A DNA stretch of 47,030 nucleotides, from the NCBI GenBank assembly GCA_946478845.1, contig CAMLDI010000021.1:1-47030 (forward strand), written 5' to 3'. Below are positions 23,332 through 36,000 of this stretch, piece after piece. The notes under the pieces are model-generated. The model did no database searches, had not been told where the DNA came from, and was given only the letters and a program-made list of their open reading frames with translations. Source of the DNA: an uncultured Paenibacillaceae bacterium (GTDB taxonomy: Bacteria > Bacillota > Bacilli > Aneurinibacillales > Aneurinibacillaceae). The translations under genes and the position numbers were made by a program. Numbering within the stretch: position 1 is the first letter of the stretch; each line of letters opens with the position of its first letter.

Positions 23332-24477
23332 TTATGTTTCAGTCCCTTTTAAAGTCAATTGAATGTCTACTTCTATATTTACATCTGCGGTTTTCATAAG
23401 TTCATCCATATGGCCTTTTACTTTACTCCACAATTTCCTGTCTCTTCGAAACATGCGTTGCAGGTCAAGGAGGTCTGCACCCGAACGATGAAGGGCTTTT
23501 TCTACATGTTCTTTTAATTTTATTTCCGTTTGTTTTGCCATATATTTTTCTATGTTTTTCAGGGTGGAATTCCCGTCCACTTTTCCATTGTAACAGGAAA
23601 ATTCTGCAATGTACCCTTTCAACATTAATTTACCAGCAATGGTTAAATGATTGTCCTCAACCCGTGGTTCCAATTTCACTTTGCTTTTTACAATATCCGC
23701 ATCAATTGACATGTTTTTTTCCTGTTTACAGGGAACACCCAGACTAAACATAAGGGAATGTTTTTTTTTGTAAACATCTTTGAGTAGTGTTACGTACTCT
23801 GATTCTTTATGATTTAAAATATCAACCATTTTAAAGTTTTTAATGACAGCGAAGGTTTCAACTTTAGCCCCTTTTTTATCTTTAGCCATTTTTACAATGG
23901 GAATTAATCCTGTGCCATGTTCAACCATGGACCGAAAAATTCTTCCAATATCTGAGGTGATCATATGGCCGGCTTTTTCATTGCGTTTGACTAATCCTTC
24001 GAGATATTCCCCGGTAAAGTGGCTTTCTTTTGGTGTGATTTTTAGCAAATCAATGGCACTCCCATCTGCAATGATGATTTGCGTATTTCTGCGCATATCA
24101 GGGTCTCGGATTTGATGATCGAAAATGGGTTTAATGCCATGTTGGGCCAATTCTTTTCCAACAATAAAGATACGATAATCAGGGAAAAAAGCCAGTCCTA
24201 CTAGACGGTACTGGGTTCCATGAAGGGCCCCTTCCAGGGATTCTTTTTCAGTTTTAGAAACAAGGACATAGGGTTTCCCTGCCTGAGTTTTTCCCTCGCC
24301 TGAGTTACCCTTGCTAAATTCAATGGATTCCAGCCCTACTTTATAACCTGGATTTCCTTTGTCAAAAGCCATTCCCGTAACAAGCCCTCTTTCAGATAAT
24401 CTTTCAAAGTTCCAACACCCTGTACAGAAGGAAAAGAGGAAAAGAATATAAATAATATGGAATAACTTACTCTTCAT
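23332..24477 (-). CDS. gerC: Ger(x)C family spore germination lipoprotein
   Basis: 381 residues. Signal peptide with lipobox-like FCTGC, the lipidated Cys being residue 21 followed by WNFERLSERGLVTGMAFD, the signature N-terminus of GerC subunits. The remainder is the extracytoplasmic GerC domain. It is the third subunit of a nutrient germinant receptor in the inner spore membrane. It overlaps the GerB-type gene by 11 bases, so translation is coupled. It is the last gene of a gerA-gerB-gerC operon. Which GerABC paralogue (gerA, gerB, gerK or other) cannot be decided; the symbol is generic. Confidence 0.92.
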   Translation of the reverse strand: MKSKLFHIIYILFLFSFCTGCWNFERLSERGLVTGMAFDKGNPGYKVGLESIEFSKGNSGEGKTQAGKPYVLVSKTEKESLEGALHGTQYRLVGLAFFPDYRIFIVGKELAQHGIKPIFDHQIRDPDMRRNTQIIIADGSAIDLLKITPKESHFTGEYLEGLVKRNEKAGHMITSDIGRIFRSMVEHGTGLIPIVKMAKDKKGAKVETFAVIKNFKMVDILNHKESEYVTLLKDVYKKKHSLMFSLGVPCKQEKNMSIDADIVKSKVKLEPRVEDNHLTIAGKLMLKGYIAEFSCYNGKVDGNSTLKNIEKYMAKQTEIKLKEHVEKALHRSGADLLDLQRMFRRDRKLWSKVKGHMDELMKTADVNIEVDIQLTLKGTET

Positions 24478-25552
24478 TTTTTTTAATCCCTTTCTTCAGT
24501 TTATAGATGATGTACATGAGAGGGAAAATAAAAAACCAGTAGGAAAAGAAAATCGGATGAAACAAATTCAAAATCTCTCGTATATTATCCATATTCCTAG
24601 GATAGAGAGAAATGGCAAAGGCAATCATGGCAAACAAAAGGGTATTGATTTTGTAATTGGATTTAGGAAATGCCTGTTTTACTCCAATGGAAGCACAGTA
24701 AAGGGTAAGAATATGGGCTAAAAAAGCAATGGGAATCCACAAAAACATGTAAACAATTTCTAAACGTTCTAAAAAAGGGATCTCGAAATCCCTGGTCATT
24801 TCAATACTTGGGTAGTTTATAAATTCAAGTTCAGTGGTACCAAACATACCAATAGAATAAATGGTGGTCAGAACCATGTTAATAGAAAGAGCGATAATTC
24901 CCAGGATGATTCCTTTACCCATACTTTTTGTATTTTTAAAGTATGGGAAGAGAAAGGGGATAACCAGCAATAAAATAAATGGTTCGGATCCTGCCGCCAA
25001 CGCTTTAAGGGGTTGTATTTTGTCAGAAATAATAGGCAAAAGGTCCTTAAAATCAGCGTCTGGAAAAAGTAAAAATGCCATTATCACCATAAGAATGGCA
25101 ATAAAAAAATTGAGAAATTCCTGTATGTAAACTACAGTCCTGGTCCCTTTTAATACTGTATATATAACGACAACTAACATCGATATAATGATGATCCATA
25201 GAGGGGTATTAAACAAAAGGTATACAATTGCACCGTTAGCAAGAATACGTAAACCTAAACCACAGCCAATAACCATATAAAGAATAAGGGATAAGGTAAT
25301 GATTTTTCCTATAAATTTTCCGAAGATGTTTTTTAATATGGAATCAAAGTTGTCTTCAGGAAACGCTTCTTTTAATTTAAAAAGAAACCAGAAAAAAGAA
25401 ATAACAAGAATGGTATTAATGATAATGAATAGCCATCCGCTTTGCCCGGAAACCTTATTTATGACAGTAGGATAATAAATTGTGCCCACAGGCAAAGTTC
25501 CATAAACCATAAAAAAAACTTGTATTGTTGTCAGGGTTATTTTTTTTTCCAT
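24467..25552 (-). CDS. gerB: GerB-type germinant receptor permease (amino-acid transporter fold)
   Basis: 361 residues with about ten transmembrane helices, the length and hydrophobic pattern of the GerAB family (APC superfamily). This subunit binds the nutrient germinant. The N-terminal segment with QVFFMVYGTLPVGTIYYP lies in helix 1, where the substrate site of the family is formed. It begins 15 bases after the GerA-type gene and overlaps gerC, consistent with one transcript. The germinant is not predictable from sequence. Confidence 0.92.
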   Translation of the reverse strand: MEKKITLTTIQVFFMVYGTLPVGTIYYPTVINKVSGQSGWLFIIINTILVISFFWFLFKLKEAFPEDNFDSILKNIFGKFIGKIITLSLILYMVIGCGLGLRILANGAIVYLLFNTPLWIIIISMLVVVIYTVLKGTRTVVYIQEFLNFFIAILMVIMAFLLFPDADFKDLLPIISDKIQPLKALAAGSEPFILLLVIPFLFPYFKNTKSMGKGIILGIIALSINMVLTTIYSIGMFGTTELEFINYPSIEMTRDFEIPFLERLEIVYMFLWIPIAFLAHILTLYCASIGVKQAFPKSNYKINTLLFAMIAFAISLYPRNMDNIREILNLFHPIFFSYWFFIFPLMYIIYKLKKGIKKNEE

Positions 25553-25567
25553 AGTAAATGTTGACTC

Positions 25568-27025
25568 CTACCCTTTTTTTAAAGGTCTCCAACGGCTTTT
25601 GGTTTTGTTTTTATTTGTTGTATAGGAAGGTCGTTTGGTCCTCCAACGAATAGGAGCTAAAATGATTGAGTCCACCCAATCCCGAATGACCATAGGGCCA
25701 AATGGCGTAAAATAAGGGGTACCGAAGCTCTCCAGACTTACCAAGCTTACCAGAAAAAATAGGATAGCTAACATTAAGCTATATAGACCAAGATAGACTG
25801 CAGAAAAAATCATTAAAAAGCGAATTAAGCGAAATGAATAGGCCATAGAATAGGATGGCGAACTAAATGATGCAATAGCAGTAATAGCAACTACAATGAG
25901 GGTAATAGGGCTGACCAGTCCAGCAGATACTGCTGATTGGCCAATTACAATTCCTCCAATAATCCCAACAGAGGGGCCAATGGGCTTAGGGATACGTATA
26001 GAGGCTTCTCTGAAAATTTCCAGGGTAAATTCCATTAATAATAATTCAATGATAGCAGGAAAAGGAACCTGAGTTCTGGATGTGATTATTGTAATTAATA
26101 AATCTGTAGGAATAAGCCCGGGAAGAAAATGAACAAGAGCGATATAAAAGGCAGGAGCAAAAAGGCTAATCATAAATGCAAGCAAGCGAACCATTCTAAC
26201 TGCAGAGGCAACATACCATTTATCATAGTAATCTTCAATATTTTGCAGGCTTTCCATGAAAGTTAGAGGCATTAACAAGGCAAAAGGAGAGTTATCTACC
26301 AGGACTCCTACTTTACCATCAGCCAGAGAAGAAGCGGTAACATCAGGCCTTTCCGTAAAGCGAATCTGAGGGAAGGGAGACCAATTATTGTCTTCAATCC
26401 ATTTTTCAATTTGGCTTGCTGATAAAATCATATCTACATCAATTTTTTTTAATCGATTTCTAACCTCATGAATAATGGTTTCTTTTGCAATTCCTTCTAT
26501 GTAAAGAATGGCGATATTGGTTTTAGACATTCTTCCAATAGAAAGGCTTTCTACCCTTAATTTCGGGTCTTTTAAAAAACGCCGAACCAGTGAAATATTT
26601 GTGCTGAGTGTCTCAACAAATCCCTCACGGGCACCTTTTATGGTTAAATCCATAATCGGCTCATCAATTCCCCGAGAAGCCCACTTTTGTATGCCAATCA
26701 TACAGAAGGAGGCTTCATTTTCTAATAGAATGCAAACTTCCCCTGATGTTAAGTCTTCAATGACTTTATTTATGTCTGTTTCTATTTTAATTTGGCTTAA
26801 AGGAAATCCATTGAGCATGTTTTTTATGGTGATCTGTTGATGATCGCCTTCATGAAAAAACCAAGGTAAAACGATTTGTTCGATTTTGTTTTGATCTGCT
26901 AGTCCCTCTAAAAAAAGAATGCCACCTTGTTGGCCATAATTCGTAACAAAGGAACGCGTAATTAAATCTTTGCTCTGTCCGAATTTTTGTTGAATGTTAT
27001 AAATGCTTTTTTCTAAGGAGTTCAT
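25568..27025 (-). CDS. gerA: GerA-type spore germination protein
   Basis: 485 residues, usual length. A soluble N-terminal domain (to about residue 250) precedes a membrane domain with the family blocks LVDNSPFALLMPLTF and FPAIIELLLMEFTLEIFREA, followed by GPSVGIIGGIVIGQSAV. It is the A subunit of a GerABC receptor and probably forms the ion channel of the complex. The ATG follows TGGAGCGG. It is the first gene of the operon. A forespore sigma-G promoter would be expected, but I could not find a convincing one in the 130 bases upstream. Confidence 0.94.
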   Translation of the reverse strand: MNSLEKSIYNIQQKFGQSKDLITRSFVTNYGQQGGILFLEGLADQNKIEQIVLPWFFHEGDHQQITIKNMLNGFPLSQIKIETDINKVIEDLTSGEVCILLENEASFCMIGIQKWASRGIDEPIMDLTIKGAREGFVETLSTNISLVRRFLKDPKLRVESLSIGRMSKTNIAILYIEGIAKETIIHEVRNRLKKIDVDMILSASQIEKWIEDNNWSPFPQIRFTERPDVTASSLADGKVGVLVDNSPFALLMPLTFMESLQNIEDYYDKWYVASAVRMVRLLAFMISLFAPAFYIALVHFLPGLIPTDLLITIITSRTQVPFPAIIELLLMEFTLEIFREASIRIPKPIGPSVGIIGGIVIGQSAVSAGLVSPITLIVVAITAIASFSSPSYSMAYSFRLIRFLMIFSAVYLGLYSLMLAILFFLVSLVSLESFGTPYFTPFGPMVIRDWVDSIILAPIRWRTKRPSYTTNKNKTKSRWRPLKKG

Positions 27026-29859: not shown

Positions 29860-31077
29860 GTGACCACTTATCAAGTGATTGAAGGAAATATCGATTCTCC
29901 CCGTGGTTTTAAAGCCACAGGGATTTCTTGTGGGCTTAAAAAAGTTGAAGGGGCATTGGATTTAGGGTTAATTATTAGTGAAGTCCCTGCTGTTGCAGCA
30001 GCTGTTTATACAACCAATTTGTTTCAAGCTGCACCTTTAAAAGTGACTCGAGAAAACATTGAACAAGAACAAAAAATCCAAGCTGTTGTTGTGAATAGCG
30101 GGAATGCTAATGCTTGTACCGGGAATAAAGGCATTGAAGATGCGAAAACCATGGGAAATTTAGTTGGAGAACTGTTCTCTATTTCCAATCATTATGTTGC
30201 AGTTGCTTCTACAGGTGTAATTGGACAACATTTGCCAATGAATCTGGTGCAACAGGGAATTCATCAATTGCCTGATTATTTAACAGAAAATAGCGGAGAA
30301 AATTTCTCCTTATCTATTATGACTACTGATTTAATCCCGAAAAAAGTGTGTGTAGAATTGCTGATAGATGGGGAAAAAGTGACCATTTCCGGGACTGCGA
30401 AGGGATCTGGCATGATTCACCCAAACATGGCTACTATGTTAGGTTTTCTTACAACAGATGCACATATTGATGCTGCTTTCTTATATAATAGTCTTAAAAG
30501 GGCTACAGATGAAACCTTTAATATGATTACGGTAGATGGTGATACAAGTACCAATGATATGGTATTAGTTCTTGCCAATGGTTTAGCCAATAACCAGGAA
30601 TTAAATGATATCCATCCTCAGGCAGAAGAATTCTATGCTGCTTTTCTTTATGTAATGCAAGAATTAGCAAAGAAAATTGCCCGTGACGGGGAAGGTGCAA
30701 CTAAATTAGTGGAAGTAAAAGTTCAGGGTGCAATGAACCAGGAAGATGCCCAGAAAGTGGCTAAAGCAGTGATTGGTTCTAATCTGGTTAAAACAGCAGT
30801 TTATGGTGCCGATGCAAACTGGGGACGTATTATTTGTGCCGTCGGTTATAGCGGTGTGAATATCGATCCGGAAAAGGTAAATGTTTCTCTAGGAAATCAA
30901 CAAGTTGTTGAAGGCGGGTTTCCTATCCCCTTTAGTGAAGAAGAAGCAACTGATTATTTAAAAGGGGAAAAAGTAGAAATTGATATTCATTTAAATCAGG
31001 GGGATGCAACGGCTATAGCCTGGGGCTGTGATTTAACGTACGATTACATCAAAATTAATGCCAGTTACCGTACGTAA
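29860..31077 (+). CDS. argJ: bifunctional ornithine acetyltransferase / N-acetylglutamate synthase
   Basis: Transfers the acetyl group of N-acetylornithine to glutamate, releasing ornithine in the cyclic arginine pathway. 405 residues, GTG start 7 bases after AAGGAGG. The self-cleavage site KGSGMIHPNMATMLGF is intact, with Thr192 as the new N-terminal nucleophile after cleavage. The C-terminal ANWGRI block is also present. It is usually part of an argC-J-B-D cluster; here it stands alone between an ABC importer and a GlmS-like gene, so the other arginine genes must be elsewhere. Monofunctional versus bifunctional activity cannot be told from sequence. Confidence 0.95.
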   Translation: MTTYQVIEGNIDSPRGFKATGISCGLKKVEGALDLGLIISEVPAVAAAVYTTNLFQAAPLKVTRENIEQEQKIQAVVVNSGNANACTGNKGIEDAKTMGNLVGELFSISNHYVAVASTGVIGQHLPMNLVQQGIHQLPDYLTENSGENFSLSIMTTDLIPKKVCVELLIDGEKVTISGTAKGSGMIHPNMATMLGFLTTDAHIDAAFLYNSLKRATDETFNMITVDGDTSTNDMVLVLANGLANNQELNDIHPQAEEFYAAFLYVMQELAKKIARDGEGATKLVEVKVQGAMNQEDAQKVAKAVIGSNLVKTAVYGADANWGRIICAVGYSGVNIDPEKVNVSLGNQQVVEGGFPIPFSEEEATDYLKGEKVEIDIHLNQGDATAIAWGCDLTYDYIKINASYRT

Positions 31078-31112
31078 AGCAAGCGCTAGGATTGGAATGA
31101 GGTGCAGAAGAA

Positions 31113-32948
31113 ATGAGTGGGATCGTAGGTTATATTGGAAAAAGAAATGCGTTGCCGATTTTATTAGATAGTTTGGACAAACTGGACTATCGGGGTTATG
31201 ATTCATCGGGAATAGCGGTTTCTAATAATCAGCATATTGAAATGAAAAAAACAATAGGACGGATTAAAGATTTACGAAATTTGTTATTAAGGGAACCTAT
31301 TAGTCAAGGTAACCTTGGAATTGGACATACACGCTGGGCTACTCATGGGGTTCCTTCTGTCACTAACTCCCATCCCTTAACTGGCTGTACGGATCGTTTT
31401 TTTGTGGTCCACAATGGAATTATTGAGAATTTTCTTTATTTAAAAAAAGAACTGTGTTTAAAAGGACATGTTTTTGCCACTGAAACAGATACTGAAGTCA
31501 TTCCTCATTTATTGGAGGAATATGATACGGGAAATCTTGAGGAAACGGTAAGAAAAATACTGCCTCTTTTAAAAGGTTCTTTCGCTCTGGCCATTATGAG
31601 CAATGATGAACCGGATCGTATCATTGCAGTATCTCAGGATAATCCCTTGGTTTTAGGATTTGGCAAGGGGGAATCTTTTCTTGCTTCTGATATTCCTGCC
31701 CTATTAACCTATACCCGGGAAATTCACCCTATTAAAAATGGGGAAATAGCCATTCTTACGACCGGGAAAGTGATTGTGAAAGACTTAAGTGGGGAAATAA
31801 AGGAAGTAGAACGTAATTTTGTAGAATGGAACATTCAAGATGTTCTATTGTCAAATCATGAACATTATATGTTGAAGGAGATTTTTGAACAACCGAAAGC
31901 CATTGAAGATACATTACAGGGCAGAATCGGGGAAAATGAAATACTTCTTCCAGAACTAGATGATTTCCTGAATAGGGATACGATAAAAAGCATTAAAAAA
32001 ATTGATTTTGTAGCAAGTGGAACTTCTTATCATGCAGGCATGATTGCCAAGAAAATTATGGAGCAATTAGTTGGCCTTCCTGTTGAAGTGTCATTCTCAT
32101 CAGAATTCCGTTATGAACATGGACCTCTTGATGGGAAAAACCTGGTTATTTTTATTAGCCAATCAGGAGAAACAGCAGATACCCTATCCGCATTAAGAGA
32201 GGCGAAAAAGTATGGTTGCCCGGTGATTGCCATTACCAATACTACAGGGAGTACCATTTCCCGGAAAGCGGATTGTACCCTGTATATAAAGGCGGGGCCA
32301 GAATTAGCGGTAGCATCAACGAAAGCCTATACAGCACAAATTACTGCCTGTATCCTTTTGGCCATGTGGCTTACCCAAAAAGGGGAGTTTAATGGCATTG
32401 GGTTGATTCCTGAATTATTATCTTCATTAAACCGTTTAAAAAGTGATTTAGAATCCACACTAATAATGACACAAGATGCCATTGACCAATTCGCTCAGGT
32501 TACCTTTGACCAGGAACATATTTTCCTCATTGGAAGAGGATTGGATTATGTATTGGCTTTAGAAGGGGCTTTAAAATTACAAGAGGTGGCTTATCTCCAT
32601 GCTGATGCATACGCTGCAGGTGAAATGAAGCATGGGACCATGGCATTAATTACACCCGGGGTTCCGGTGATTGCTTTGGCTACCCAGGACCATGTTGTAG
32701 AAAAAACAATCAGCAACATTAAAGAAGTAAAAGCAAGGGATGCTTTCGTGGTGGGGATTACCACTATAGGGGATGATTTGCTTTATGAAGAGGTGGATCA
32801 TGTCATGTACATTCCTTCTACTCATTCATTCCTTATGCCCATTTTAGCGGCTATTCCTTTGCAATTACTGGCTTATTATTCTGGAACAGTTCGGGGCCAT
32901 GAAGTAGATCGCCCACGGAATCTGGCAAAAAGTTTAACCGTTGAATAA
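31113..32948 (+). CDS. GlmS-like glutamine-fructose-6-phosphate aminotransferase with Cys-to-Ser change at the nucleophile
   Basis: 611 residues, full GlmS length. An N-terminal class II glutaminase domain (to about 235) is followed by two SIS sugar-isomerase domains. Glutamine-site residues are kept: Arg74 in TRWATHG, Asn101-Gly102 in HNG, Asp126 in ETDTEV. Isomerase motifs SGTSYHA, SQSGETADT, STKAYTAQ and the C-terminal RPRNLAKSLTVE are intact. The protein starts MSGIVGYIG (codon AGT), where GlmS always has Met-Cys, the Cys being the catalytic N-terminal nucleophile. The start is firm (GAGGTG 8 bases upstream). There is no room for a glmS ribozyme (35-base gap to argJ). It may be ammonia-dependent, use Ser as nucleophile, or be a paralogue with another role. 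Confidence 0.85.
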   Translation: MSGIVGYIGKRNALPILLDSLDKLDYRGYDSSGIAVSNNQHIEMKKTIGRIKDLRNLLLREPISQGNLGIGHTRWATHGVPSVTNSHPLTGCTDRFFVVHNGIIENFLYLKKELCLKGHVFATETDTEVIPHLLEEYDTGNLEETVRKILPLLKGSFALAIMSNDEPDRIIAVSQDNPLVLGFGKGESFLASDIPALLTYTREIHPIKNGEIAILTTGKVIVKDLSGEIKEVERNFVEWNIQDVLLSNHEHYMLKEIFEQPKAIEDTLQGRIGENEILLPELDDFLNRDTIKSIKKIDFVASGTSYHAGMIAKKIMEQLVGLPVEVSFSSEFRYEHGPLDGKNLVIFISQSGETADTLSALREAKKYGCPVIAITNTTGSTISRKADCTLYIKAGPELAVASTKAYTAQITACILLAMWLTQKGEFNGIGLIPELLSSLNRLKSDLESTLIMTQDAIDQFAQVTFDQEHIFLIGRGLDYVLALEGALKLQEVAYLHADAYAAGEMKHGTMALITPGVPVIALATQDHVVEKTISNIKEVKARDAFVVGITTIGDDLLYEEVDHVMYIPSTHSFLMPILAAIPLQLLAYYSGTVRGHEVDRPRNLAKSLTVE

Positions 32949-32960
32949 GAGGATGTAGGA

Positions 32961-32999
32961 AAAAAAATCTCCGCAATAGTTGGTTGCGGAGATTTTTTT
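32961..32999. terminator. bidirectional terminator
   Basis: Perfect 16-bp stem including A/T runs (AAATCTCCGCAA / TTGCGGAGATTT core) with a 7-base loop, between convergent genes. Confidence 0.9.
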
Positions 33000-34242: not shown

Positions 34243-35106
34243 TTAACGCAGTTCGTGTTTTTTTTGAAATTTATTCAGGGGAAAATTTTTATTCCAGATG
34301 GTTACCATATATGTTCCTGGTTCTATATTGGTAAAAAAATAAAAATTACTCGTAAGACTTTTTAATTGGACAAGGATTTCATTATTATTTTCAATTTTAT
34401 ATAACGCTACAATAGCTTCTTTATAAGAGTGGAAATTTTCAACAATACCACTAATTGTTCCAAGGGAAATAACAGGATCAGGGGTTAGAAATAAATCTGA
34501 TTTAACAAATTGCCCTTCATCAATGAGAATGATGACTTCCATCGAGGGTTGATACCCTAATAAATTTGCTCTTAGAAAATATTCTCCGGGGGGAAGGGCA
34601 GAGATTAAATATTGTCCATTTTGATTACTTATCACAGAAGTATAACAAGCAGGGTCCTTTTTTGATTGAAGGGAGATTTCTACTTTAGGAAGGGGTTTTT
34701 GGGTGACAGAATCAACAATAATACCGTAAAGGGTTCCCCCTTTTTTCAAAGGTTCTTTTTTAATTTCTAAATCTATATGAAGTTTGCTATTGATTTGAAA
34801 TGTCATGACGGGGGATATGGTATATCCTTTAGCACTGGCTACCAGTTTATATTTACCTGGTTTAAGTATTTTTTTAACTTCATAAACTCCATTAAAATTG
34901 GTGATTGTATGGTAAAGAGGATTAAAATCAAGTGATAAGACTTCTACGGTAGCTCCAACGATTGCTTTTTTTCCATAAATTACCTTTCCGTATAAAAGGG
35001 TTTGTGGTGGAGGTGCCAATTTTTGTAGGGCTAAATCTATTCGTTTTTCTTCAAAAGGCTTTATTGAAAAGGTTTTGGATTGATGGAGTTGTGTAATGTC
35101 TTTCAT
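34243..35106 (-). CDS. tandem carboxypeptidase-regulatory-like (transthyretin-fold) domain protein
   Basis: 287 residues with at least two, probably three, repeats of the CarboxypepD_reg beta-sandwich. Each has a GxVxxxxxxIxGATVEV-like start and a GxYxxxxLxPGxYxLxAxxxGY end (for example NQNGQYLISALPPGEYFLRA). It has no signal peptide or membrane helix, which is unusual for this domain, which is commonly secreted. It is a diverged paralogue of the neighbouring gene at 35131-36000 and lies 24 bases after it. Possible roles are spore-coat or intracellular scaffold protein; that is inference from lack of a leader in a spore former. Confidence 0.75.
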   Translation of the reverse strand: MKDITQLHQSKTFSIKPFEEKRIDLALQKLAPPPQTLLYGKVIYGKKAIVGATVEVLSLDFNPLYHTITNFNGVYEVKKILKPGKYKLVASAKGYTISPVMTFQINSKLHIDLEIKKEPLKKGGTLYGIIVDSVTQKPLPKVEISLQSKKDPACYTSVISNQNGQYLISALPPGEYFLRANLLGYQPSMEVIILIDEGQFVKSDLFLTPDPVISLGTISGIVENFHSYKEAIVALYKIENNNEILVQLKSLTSNFYFFTNIEPGTYMVTIWNKNFPLNKFQKKHELR

Positions 35107-35130: not shown

Positions 35131-36000
35131 TTAAAATTGGACCACTTTCGCTTTAATACGATAAGTGATGTTGGCAGGAACATCAACAAAAATATAAAAA
35201 CCATTGGTTTGGGTTCTGGTTATTTCAATCAACGTTTCTTGCTCATTTACAATTTGATAAAGGCCAACGATTGCTCCGGAAATAGGTAACCCTTTGGTTT
35301 TATCAGTAATGACTCCACTAACTGTTCCTAAAGTATCAGTGGTATTCACGGTGAGGAATACATCAGCTGGTGCAAATACATCCCCTTCAATGGGAACATT
35401 AATCACATCACTTGCATTAAAGCCCATGGCTGTCGCCTGTACCGTATAAGTTCCAAGGGGTAAATTTCCTACAGCATATTGCCCTTCCGCATTAGATATT
35501 GTAGTTGCAAATAAAACAGGGGTTCCTTCCGTAATATTGTTTAAAGTAACACTTGCATTGGCAATGGGTTCATTGGTTTGGTTATTTCTAACGATTCCAA
35601 AAATAGCATTAATGTGAAATCCAACGGGAAATGGAAGAAGATTAATATCAATAGAAAGAGTTCCTGATTGGGGAAGAGTAAATGCTTGTACAAGAGGGGC
35701 TACAAAACCAGGGGCTTTAGCTGTAATCAGATACGAACCGGGAGCTAATTGGTTAAAAATATAACGACCAGAAGGATTGGAATGTGTATGATTGACGGGA
35801 TTAAATTGAGCTGCAGACAGAATTTTTACAGTAGCACCCTCTACAGGGTTCCCATCTGGATCTTTTACGGTTCCTTGCACAACCCTGTTTGTCGGGGCAG
35901 GGGCTAGCTCTAATTGAAGGTCAAAATCAAGTTCTCCATTAATTGAAGGCATAGGTGCCGGAGGACTGGCACCGAGGAAATAAAGATCAGTTTCAGGCAA
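35131..36000 (-). CDS. three-domain carboxypeptidase-regulatory-like repeat protein
   Basis: 289 residues. A Pro-rich N-terminus (GASPPAPMPS) is followed by three beta-sandwich repeats: around 40-120 (VQGTVKDPDGNPVEGATVKI ... GSYLITAKAPGF), 130-215 (FGIVRNNQTNEPIANASVTL) and 225-289 (VSGVITDKTKGLPISGAIVGL). No signal peptide is visible with the TTG start at 36000 (AAGGAG about 11 bases upstream), the only plausible start. First gene of a three-gene operon. Not assigned a function; repeats of this type usually mediate adhesion or structural contacts. Confidence 0.75.
   Translation of the reverse strand: MPETDLYFLGASPPAPMPSINGELDFDLQLELAPAPTNRVVQGTVKDPDGNPVEGATVKILSAAQFNPVNHTHSNPSGRYIFNQLAPGSYLITAKAPGFVAPLVQAFTLPQSGTLSIDINLLPFPVGFHINAIFGIVRNNQTNEPIANASVTLNNITEGTPVLFATTISNAEGQYAVGNLPLGTYTVQATAMGFNASDVINVPIEGDVFAPADVFLTVNTTDTLGTVSGVITDKTKGLPISGAIVGLYQIVNEQETLIEITRTQTNGFYIFVDVPANITYRIKAKVVQF

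Follow-up and report, generated by a model that had tools for sequence, protein, structure and literature searches.

A conserved natural serine in place of the N-terminal cysteine in a branch of GlmS, with a possible ammonia-linked role

A serine-type GlmS homologue

The glmS-like gene of the window (the whole stretch of 47,030 nt analysed here) encodes a member of a branch of GlmS, apparently an old one, in which the N-terminal cysteine nucleophile is replaced by a conserved serine. We tentatively propose, with slightly less than even confidence and on the basis of sequence comparisons, that this enzyme binds glutamine but does not split it efficiently, and that it makes glucosamine-6-phosphate (GlcN6P) from ammonia.

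The TIGR01135 (glmS) model matches residues 3–611 of the window protein with 724 bits (cut-off 418), the domain search identified GATase_6/7 alongside the SIS stretches, and the solved GlmS chain 4AMV aligns to the window protein over its full length (475 bits). An excerpt of PMC9272926 describes Cys1 as the only catalytic residue of the GlmS glutaminase site. The window protein begins with MSGIVGYIG, and translation and codon agree on the serine, as the sequence-only reading had it. That reading had also placed the start firmly and found no ribozyme upstream; both points hold, as GAGGTG lies at the expected place (Table 1) and precedes 22 of 30 gene copies (window counted in, tallied by eye), and a glmS ribozyme was detected nowhere in the window. 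Its statement that all other motifs are intact stands for the residues at the core of the glutaminase and isomerase sites; at other positions, described below, the clade has changes of its own that are fixed or nearly so.

Table 1. The serine-type glmS gene, its key codons and its neighbourhood in the window (E. coli residue numbers)
Feature	Position	Strand	Remarks
Ser1-type GlmS paralogue	31113..32948	+	611 aa; TIGR01135, PF13522/PF13537, two SIS stretches
AGT codon, Ser where GlmS has Cys1	31116..31118	+	sequence and translation
Ribosome-binding site GAGGTG	31099..31104	+	8 nt 5' of ATG
HTRWATHG (R73, W74, T76, H77), kept	31326..31349	+	alignment; taken to be glutamine site and channel gate
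Asn-Gly (N98, G99), kept	31413..31418	+	alignment; taken to be the oxyanion pair
Asp123 equivalent, kept	31488..31490	+	alignment; presumably glutamine binding
Gln-Glu: K487 replaced by Gln, catalytic E488 kept	32580..32585	+	Gln in 86/86 clade rows
Lys603 equivalent (isomerase), kept	32928..32930	+	alignment
argJ	29860..31077	+	PF01960; 35 nt 5' of the Ser glmS
Inverted repeat between A and T runs	32967..32993		likely terminator, common with the convergent gene; by eye

The serine is conserved throughout the clade

A search of 5.8 billion proteins gave 8000 scored candidates, the best 120 of which, together with the query, were used for the comparison of N-termini. Among these best 120, the full-length relatives of the query are 60–92% identical to it, and the next full-length group 50–53%. 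Ser is found in 76 of the 121 N-termini and Cys in 43, while two proteins lack the N-terminus; all 43 Cys proteins fall in the second, more distant group, and Ser is present in 76 of 76 N-terminally complete clade members within this set (query counted; three of the 76 N-termini come from partial proteins). Hence the serine, first noted in a single sequence, proved to be a property of the whole clade. Neither Ala nor Gly ever occupies this position in the clade, although a merely dead site might allow either. The names attached to the Ser group include Aneurinibacillus, Ammoniphilus, Effusibacillus, Heyndrickxia, Pullulanibacillus, Tuberibacillus, Salinibacillus and Fictibacillus, among others, and the proteins go in the databases under the name of ordinary GlmS.

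AGT differs from TGT by one base, and the serine could in principle be a sequencing error or the mark of a dying gene. However, all 30 Ser gene copies examined at the DNA level have AGT (24) or AGC (6), the genome matches of the clade contain no internal stops, and the same residue recurs clade-wide; at the level of the clade this explanation is rejected, and its probability is negligible. A search of viral contigs for one AGY-coded pattern with an ATG start gave no exact match, and no paper on such a Ser GlmS paralogue was found in the open-licence PMC literature, as judged by titles and the openings of abstracts.

Origin and genomic distribution

The phylogenetic tree was calculated from 47 of 86 Ser and 39 of 80 Cys rows of the alignment, with near-copies removed and everything up to residue 2 cut out, and was rooted at the midpoint for drawing only. 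The 47 Ser rows form one side of a single branch (SH-aLRT 100) with a stem of 1.01 changes per site, which joins among the longer Cys GlmS proteins, mostly of 606–612 residues; the ribozyme-linked copies of 600 residues, present in many of the Ser-carrying genomes, are located across a longer branch. The Ser copy is thus not the product of a recent local duplication, and on the present tree the Ser GlmS is an old branch with what appears to be one origin. Four genomes (G013, G020, G027 and G043) have a ribozyme-linked copy that belongs to the longer type as well.

Three overlapping sets of genomes (61, 398 drawn from the class, and 60) were searched. The Ser copy was identified in 18 of the 61, in 19 of the 398 (18 of them shared with the former set) and in 11 of the 60 around the nineteenth (this genome enters both counts), which gives 29 genomes in total, 27 of them with a Cys glmS as well. 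A glmS ribozyme was detected in 27 of the 29, each time 54–261 nt 5' of a Cys copy. The sister MAG, whose Ser protein is 92% identical to the window protein, likewise possesses a Cys glmS, which a ribozyme precedes by 54 nt; thus, the idea of a second, separately controlled copy is borne out there and in nearly all Ser-carrying genomes. The Cys proteins of these genomes are 43–52% identical to the window protein, and in the three genomes inspected (G004, G014, G401) their gene follows glmM. In two genomes a third GlmS was noticed, with Cys and with no ribozyme (L111 in G013 and L113 in G015; 49% and 48% identical to the window protein, respectively). At the 29 Ser loci no Rfam family reached its cut-off (L007 and L020 have fewer than 600 bases upstream).

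The gene order of the window (ABC transporter, argJ, glmS, DUF523) is repeated in the sister MAG, and a genome scan by protein matched a single locus. The suggestion that argJ is a meaningful partner did not survive the comparison, since the argJ-glmS adjacency is limited to the window and this sister MAG, and argJ was not seen beside the Ser glmS in the other 28 loci (L070 and L083 hold fewer than 600 bases upstream); nor was any gene neighbourhood of the Ser glmS shared across genera. Elsewhere in the window, two adjacent similar genes on the minus strand (34243–35106 and 35131–36000; 287 and 289 aa) encode carboxypeptidase-regulatory-like domains, and in the sister MAG (L001) the genes that flank this pair are present without it. 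The minus-strand region 24467–27025 comprises spore-permease and GerA-type germination genes, with a third ORF adjoining (23332–24477).

Conservation of the glutamine and isomerase sites

The alignment comprised 86 Ser rows (73 search matches including the query, and 13 loci) and 80 Cys rows (43 matches and 37 loci), with the partial proteins P0074, P0075, P0076, P0079 and P0101 left out, as was the shortened Cys copy L102; E. coli numbers were obtained by alignment to solved GlmS chains. The residue roles and the list of glutamine-site residues are those we assume, except for Cys1, E488, H504 and K603. The window protein possesses all nine residues of this list (R26, R73, W74, T76, H77, H86, N98, G99 and D123). 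In the clade, R26, R73, W74, H86, G99 and D123 are kept in 86 of 86 rows, N98 in 85 and H77 in 84, and T76 is Thr in 38 rows and Ser in 48. The five isomerase residues checked (E481, K485, E488, H504 and K603) are present in all 86; three of them, E488, H504 and K603, are named as isomerase residues in an excerpt of PMC9272926. The fixed or nearly fixed changes of the clade (84 to 86 of 86 rows) are H88L, S120T, S176N, K487Q, S490A, E495D and V605L, and S401 is replaced by Ala in 51 rows. In one clade member, P0026, the glutamine site is eroded further: Tyr replaces H77, Asp replaces N98 and Gln replaces the His that precedes N98. P0032 lacks H77.

The glutaminase domain has 48 columns that never vary among the Cys rows. 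Nine of these belong to the glutamine site, and the Ser clade conserves eight of them at 97% or above; of the other 39 it conserves 32, so that the pocket is kept as well as the rest of the domain. The ratio of the rates of the glutaminase and isomerase domains is 1.32 in the Ser set, compared with 1.16 in the Cys set (all 39) or 1.24 (a subset of 21). The glutaminase domain is thus still under selection, which makes a dead relic unlikely, and the kept pocket together with a domain evolving only slightly faster suggests that glutamine still matters to the protein.

These observations could also mean that Ser is a working N-terminal nucleophile and that the protein still depends on glutamine as a GlmS, possibly one that is slower or that thiol oxidation does not affect. 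Ser-type Ntn hydrolases exist, and the occurrence of Ser and no other residue at the N-terminus, the conservation of N98-G99 and of the glutamine-binding residues, and the little relaxed glutaminase domain are all in line with such an enzyme. On the other hand, Cys1 is invariant across the 80 other GlmS rows, P0026 lacks both N98 and H77 and P0032 lacks H77, and in one species, whose genus requires ammonium (see below), no GlmS other than a Ser protein was found, so that on balance we consider this reading unlikely, if a serious one. A non-catalytic sensor of glutamine or sugar-phosphate would account for ligand pockets that are kept while the nucleophile is lost, but the complete conservation of the isomerase residues and the presence of the Ser protein as the only GlmS found in one species make it highly improbable.

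Apparent nitrogen-type control in a part of the Aneurinibacillus group

The regions upstream of the glmS copies were searched for the TGTNAN7TNACA consensus, which an excerpt of PMC6191146 gives together with both modes of GlnR action. Exact boxes were found in 7 of 30 Ser upstream regions, against 0.1 expected (200 shuffles, maximum 2), and in 0 of 29 regions upstream of Cys copies; with one mismatch allowed, the counts are 14 of 30 (3.3 expected, maximum 8) and 2 of 29 (2.4 expected). The match in L083 was discounted as it lies inside a terminator-like repeat, leaving six genomes with an exact box (G004, G006, G007, G008, G009 and G011), and two others (G002 and G010) have a box with one mismatch at the same place. 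In these eight genomes of the Aneurinibacillus group, which are close relatives and not independent, a TATAAT starts 40–43 nt ahead of the Ser glmS start codon, and the distance from the box centre to TATAAT is 49 bp in five and 38–39 bp in three of them, i.e. about one helical turn apart; the cores of the boxes vary. The same box precedes glnR in G004, G014 and G015. In G004 the box centre lies 36 bp before the -10 box of glnR (by eye), hence the spacing cannot tell activation from repression. Judged by these motifs, nitrogen control of the GlnR/TnrA type appears to act on the Ser glmS in some members of the Aneurinibacillus group. An exact box upstream of the Ser glmS is absent from the window, the sister MAG, Ammoniphilus, Heyndrickxia and Aneurinibacillus G003 and G005; in the window the best box upstream of the gene has one mismatch and is within argJ, as is the sole exact match.

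TATAAT-like boxes occur in 22 of the 30 Ser upstream regions (13.6 expected, maximum 21). Control by a sporulation-type promoter was considered and rejected, as CATANNNTA was found in 0 of 30 regions (2.1 expected), and 7 of 30 contained CATANNNT and 7 of 30 CATNNTA (5.7 expected for either motif). The full sigma-E pattern, in a loose form, matched 5 of 30 (1.1 expected, maximum 4). In addition, TTCATGTTAGCAT is common to the regions upstream of the Ser glmS in L094, L095, L096 and L098 (genomes G399, G400, G402 and G401, respectively), and in L094 and L095 it is part of a perfect inverted repeat, TTCATG-TTAG-CATGAA, which could be an operator.

The box in the eight genomes would also suit an enzyme that runs mainly in reverse, as a deaminase of GlcN6P or a related amino-sugar phosphate that recovers nitrogen, in which the loss of Cys would avoid the waste of glutamine. 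The models of NagB-II and GlmD do match the isomerase domain of the window protein, but far under their cut-offs (NF046059, 132.7 of 430 bits; NF041128, 90.9 of 580 bits), and two changes at the sugar site, S401A and K487Q, could be read in the same direction. Against such a role, the glutaminase domain is kept, four genomes together have five PF01182 matches, of which the three that were classified already are deaminases of the NagB type, and A. oxalaticus, from an obligately oxalotrophic genus, presumably must make GlcN6P and has no other GlmS that we found. We regard the deaminase reading as improbable.

Ammoniphilus oxalaticus and a possible ammonia-linked role

The genome of A. oxalaticus (G012), whose Ser protein is identical to P0064 and retains H77 and N98, yielded no GlmS besides the Ser copy when searched with a Cys GlmS, and no glmS ribozyme was found in it. 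Its cdaA and glmM, both assigned by protein family, flank a 409-aa ORF and are located in the middle of a contig of 702945 bases; this ORF, which matches no family, presumably occupies the place of ybbR. In the related G014 the Cys glmS comes next after glmM, whereas in A. oxalaticus it is absent from that place in an unbroken contig: the similarity between the two genomes ends at the end of glmM, and elsewhere only three matches of 17–28 residues were obtained. A. oxalaticus also has glutamine synthetase, NagB and two glmM genes (L147 and L148, both above the TIGR01455 cut-off). G402 was examined as a second genome devoid of Cys glmS and set aside, since its glmM is 252 bases from the contig end and the absence is not counted as a loss. 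In Aneurinibacillus sp. REN35 (G004) the Cys copy (L102, L151) ends before the C-terminal tail with K603, and its similarity to relatives stops where the copy stops; this may be a misassembly. In the excerpted description of the genus, Ammoniphilus is said to need high ammonium and to be obligately oxalotrophic.

With no other GlmS found in A. oxalaticus, the Ser enzyme most likely still makes GlcN6P, and with Cys1 gone, free ammonia would be the simplest nitrogen donor. In the mechanism we envisage, the N-terminal nucleophile became Ser in an old GlmS branch; once freed of its initiator Met, the enzyme would still bind glutamine, as the kept glutamine residues suggest, as a gate or a sensor of the nitrogen state, but would no longer hydrolyse it efficiently, and free ammonia would reach the isomerase site and be added to fructose-6-phosphate to yield GlcN6P. 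As this ammonia step would run in both directions, a net gain of product would call for plenty of ammonium. According to an excerpt of PMC12385614, formation of GlcN6P from fructose-6-phosphate and ammonia, at high ammonia, has been used in engineering with the deaminase GlmD. If it uses ammonia, the Ser copy, which has no ribozyme, could serve as a glutamine-sparing route that escapes the ribozyme feedback.

An extra copy free of the ribozyme and patchily spread might instead be a backup GlmS, which escapes glutamine-analogue antimetabolites that alkylate Cys1; anticapsin, derived from the bacilysin of Bacillus subtilis, is described in an excerpt of PMC9272926 as alkylating this residue of GlmS. 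Its presence as the sole copy in A. oxalaticus and the nitrogen-type control in some genomes speak against such a backup, which in any case explains a purpose and not the nitrogen source, and is compatible with the use of ammonia; we find it very unlikely.

Three observations make an ammonia-linked role appear the likeliest: the glutamine pocket is kept, the Cys copy is missing from a species whose genus requires ammonium, and some relatives have the GlnR-type box. The loss of H77 and N98 in P0026, the row nearest to the A. oxalaticus Ser protein in the tree, and the Cys copy of G004 that ends before K603 count in its favour. Several observations count against it: the serine is uniform, with never an Ala or Gly; the state of the glutaminase domain suggests that glutamine still matters; H77 and N98 are both present in the protein of A. 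oxalaticus; the NagB of this species offers another ammonia-linked route to the same product; and the ammonium need is given for the genus, yet two other Ammoniphilus genomes (G014 and G015) retain a Cys glmS. Moreover, an excerpt of PMC9272926 describes GlmS as glutamine-specific, unlike relatives able to use ammonia, and control by GlnR/TnrA would, according to an excerpt of PMC6191146, normally raise expression under nitrogen scarcity, which is odd for an ammonia-hungry enzyme; the absence of the box from the window, the sister MAG, Ammoniphilus and two named Aneurinibacillus genomes weighs on the same side.

Relation to known systems and implications

The Ser proteins share with GlmS/GFAT (TIGR01135; E. 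coli 4AMV and 1JXA) the length, the GATase and SIS domains, the glutamine pocket, the isomerase residues and the C-terminal tail, and differ from them by Ser in place of Cys1 in every complete clade member among the best 120 matches and the query, by the seven clade changes listed above and by having no ribozyme. Since the defining Cys1 is absent, they are best termed GlmS homologues and not canonical glutamine-hydrolysing GlmS. The ribozyme-controlled Cys GlmS of the same genomes is homologous to the Ser copy but possesses both the Cys1 and the ribozyme that the latter lacks. The GlmD/NagB-II deaminases, whose layout is SIS only, have in common with the Ser GlmS the homology of the isomerase domain and the ammonia-linked chemistry, but are devoid of the glutaminase domain that the Ser GlmS keeps. 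In laboratory Cys1 mutants of GlmS (the 3OOJ chain starts with Ala) the nucleophile is replaced as it is here; in the Ser clade the replacement is natural and conserved.

That Ser is naturally conserved in this branch shows that the changed GlmS site has acquired a stable use in evolution, and the branch bears directly on whether a GlmS can work with Ser as its nucleophile or with ammonia as its donor. It is conceivable, though doubtful on present evidence, that the Ser protein is a natural ammonia-using GlcN6P synthase with glutamine as a signal, and that by replacing the ordinary GlmS it makes A. oxalaticus depend on high ammonium. If the ammonia reading is true, it would provide a concrete cause for the ammonium dependence of Ammoniphilus.
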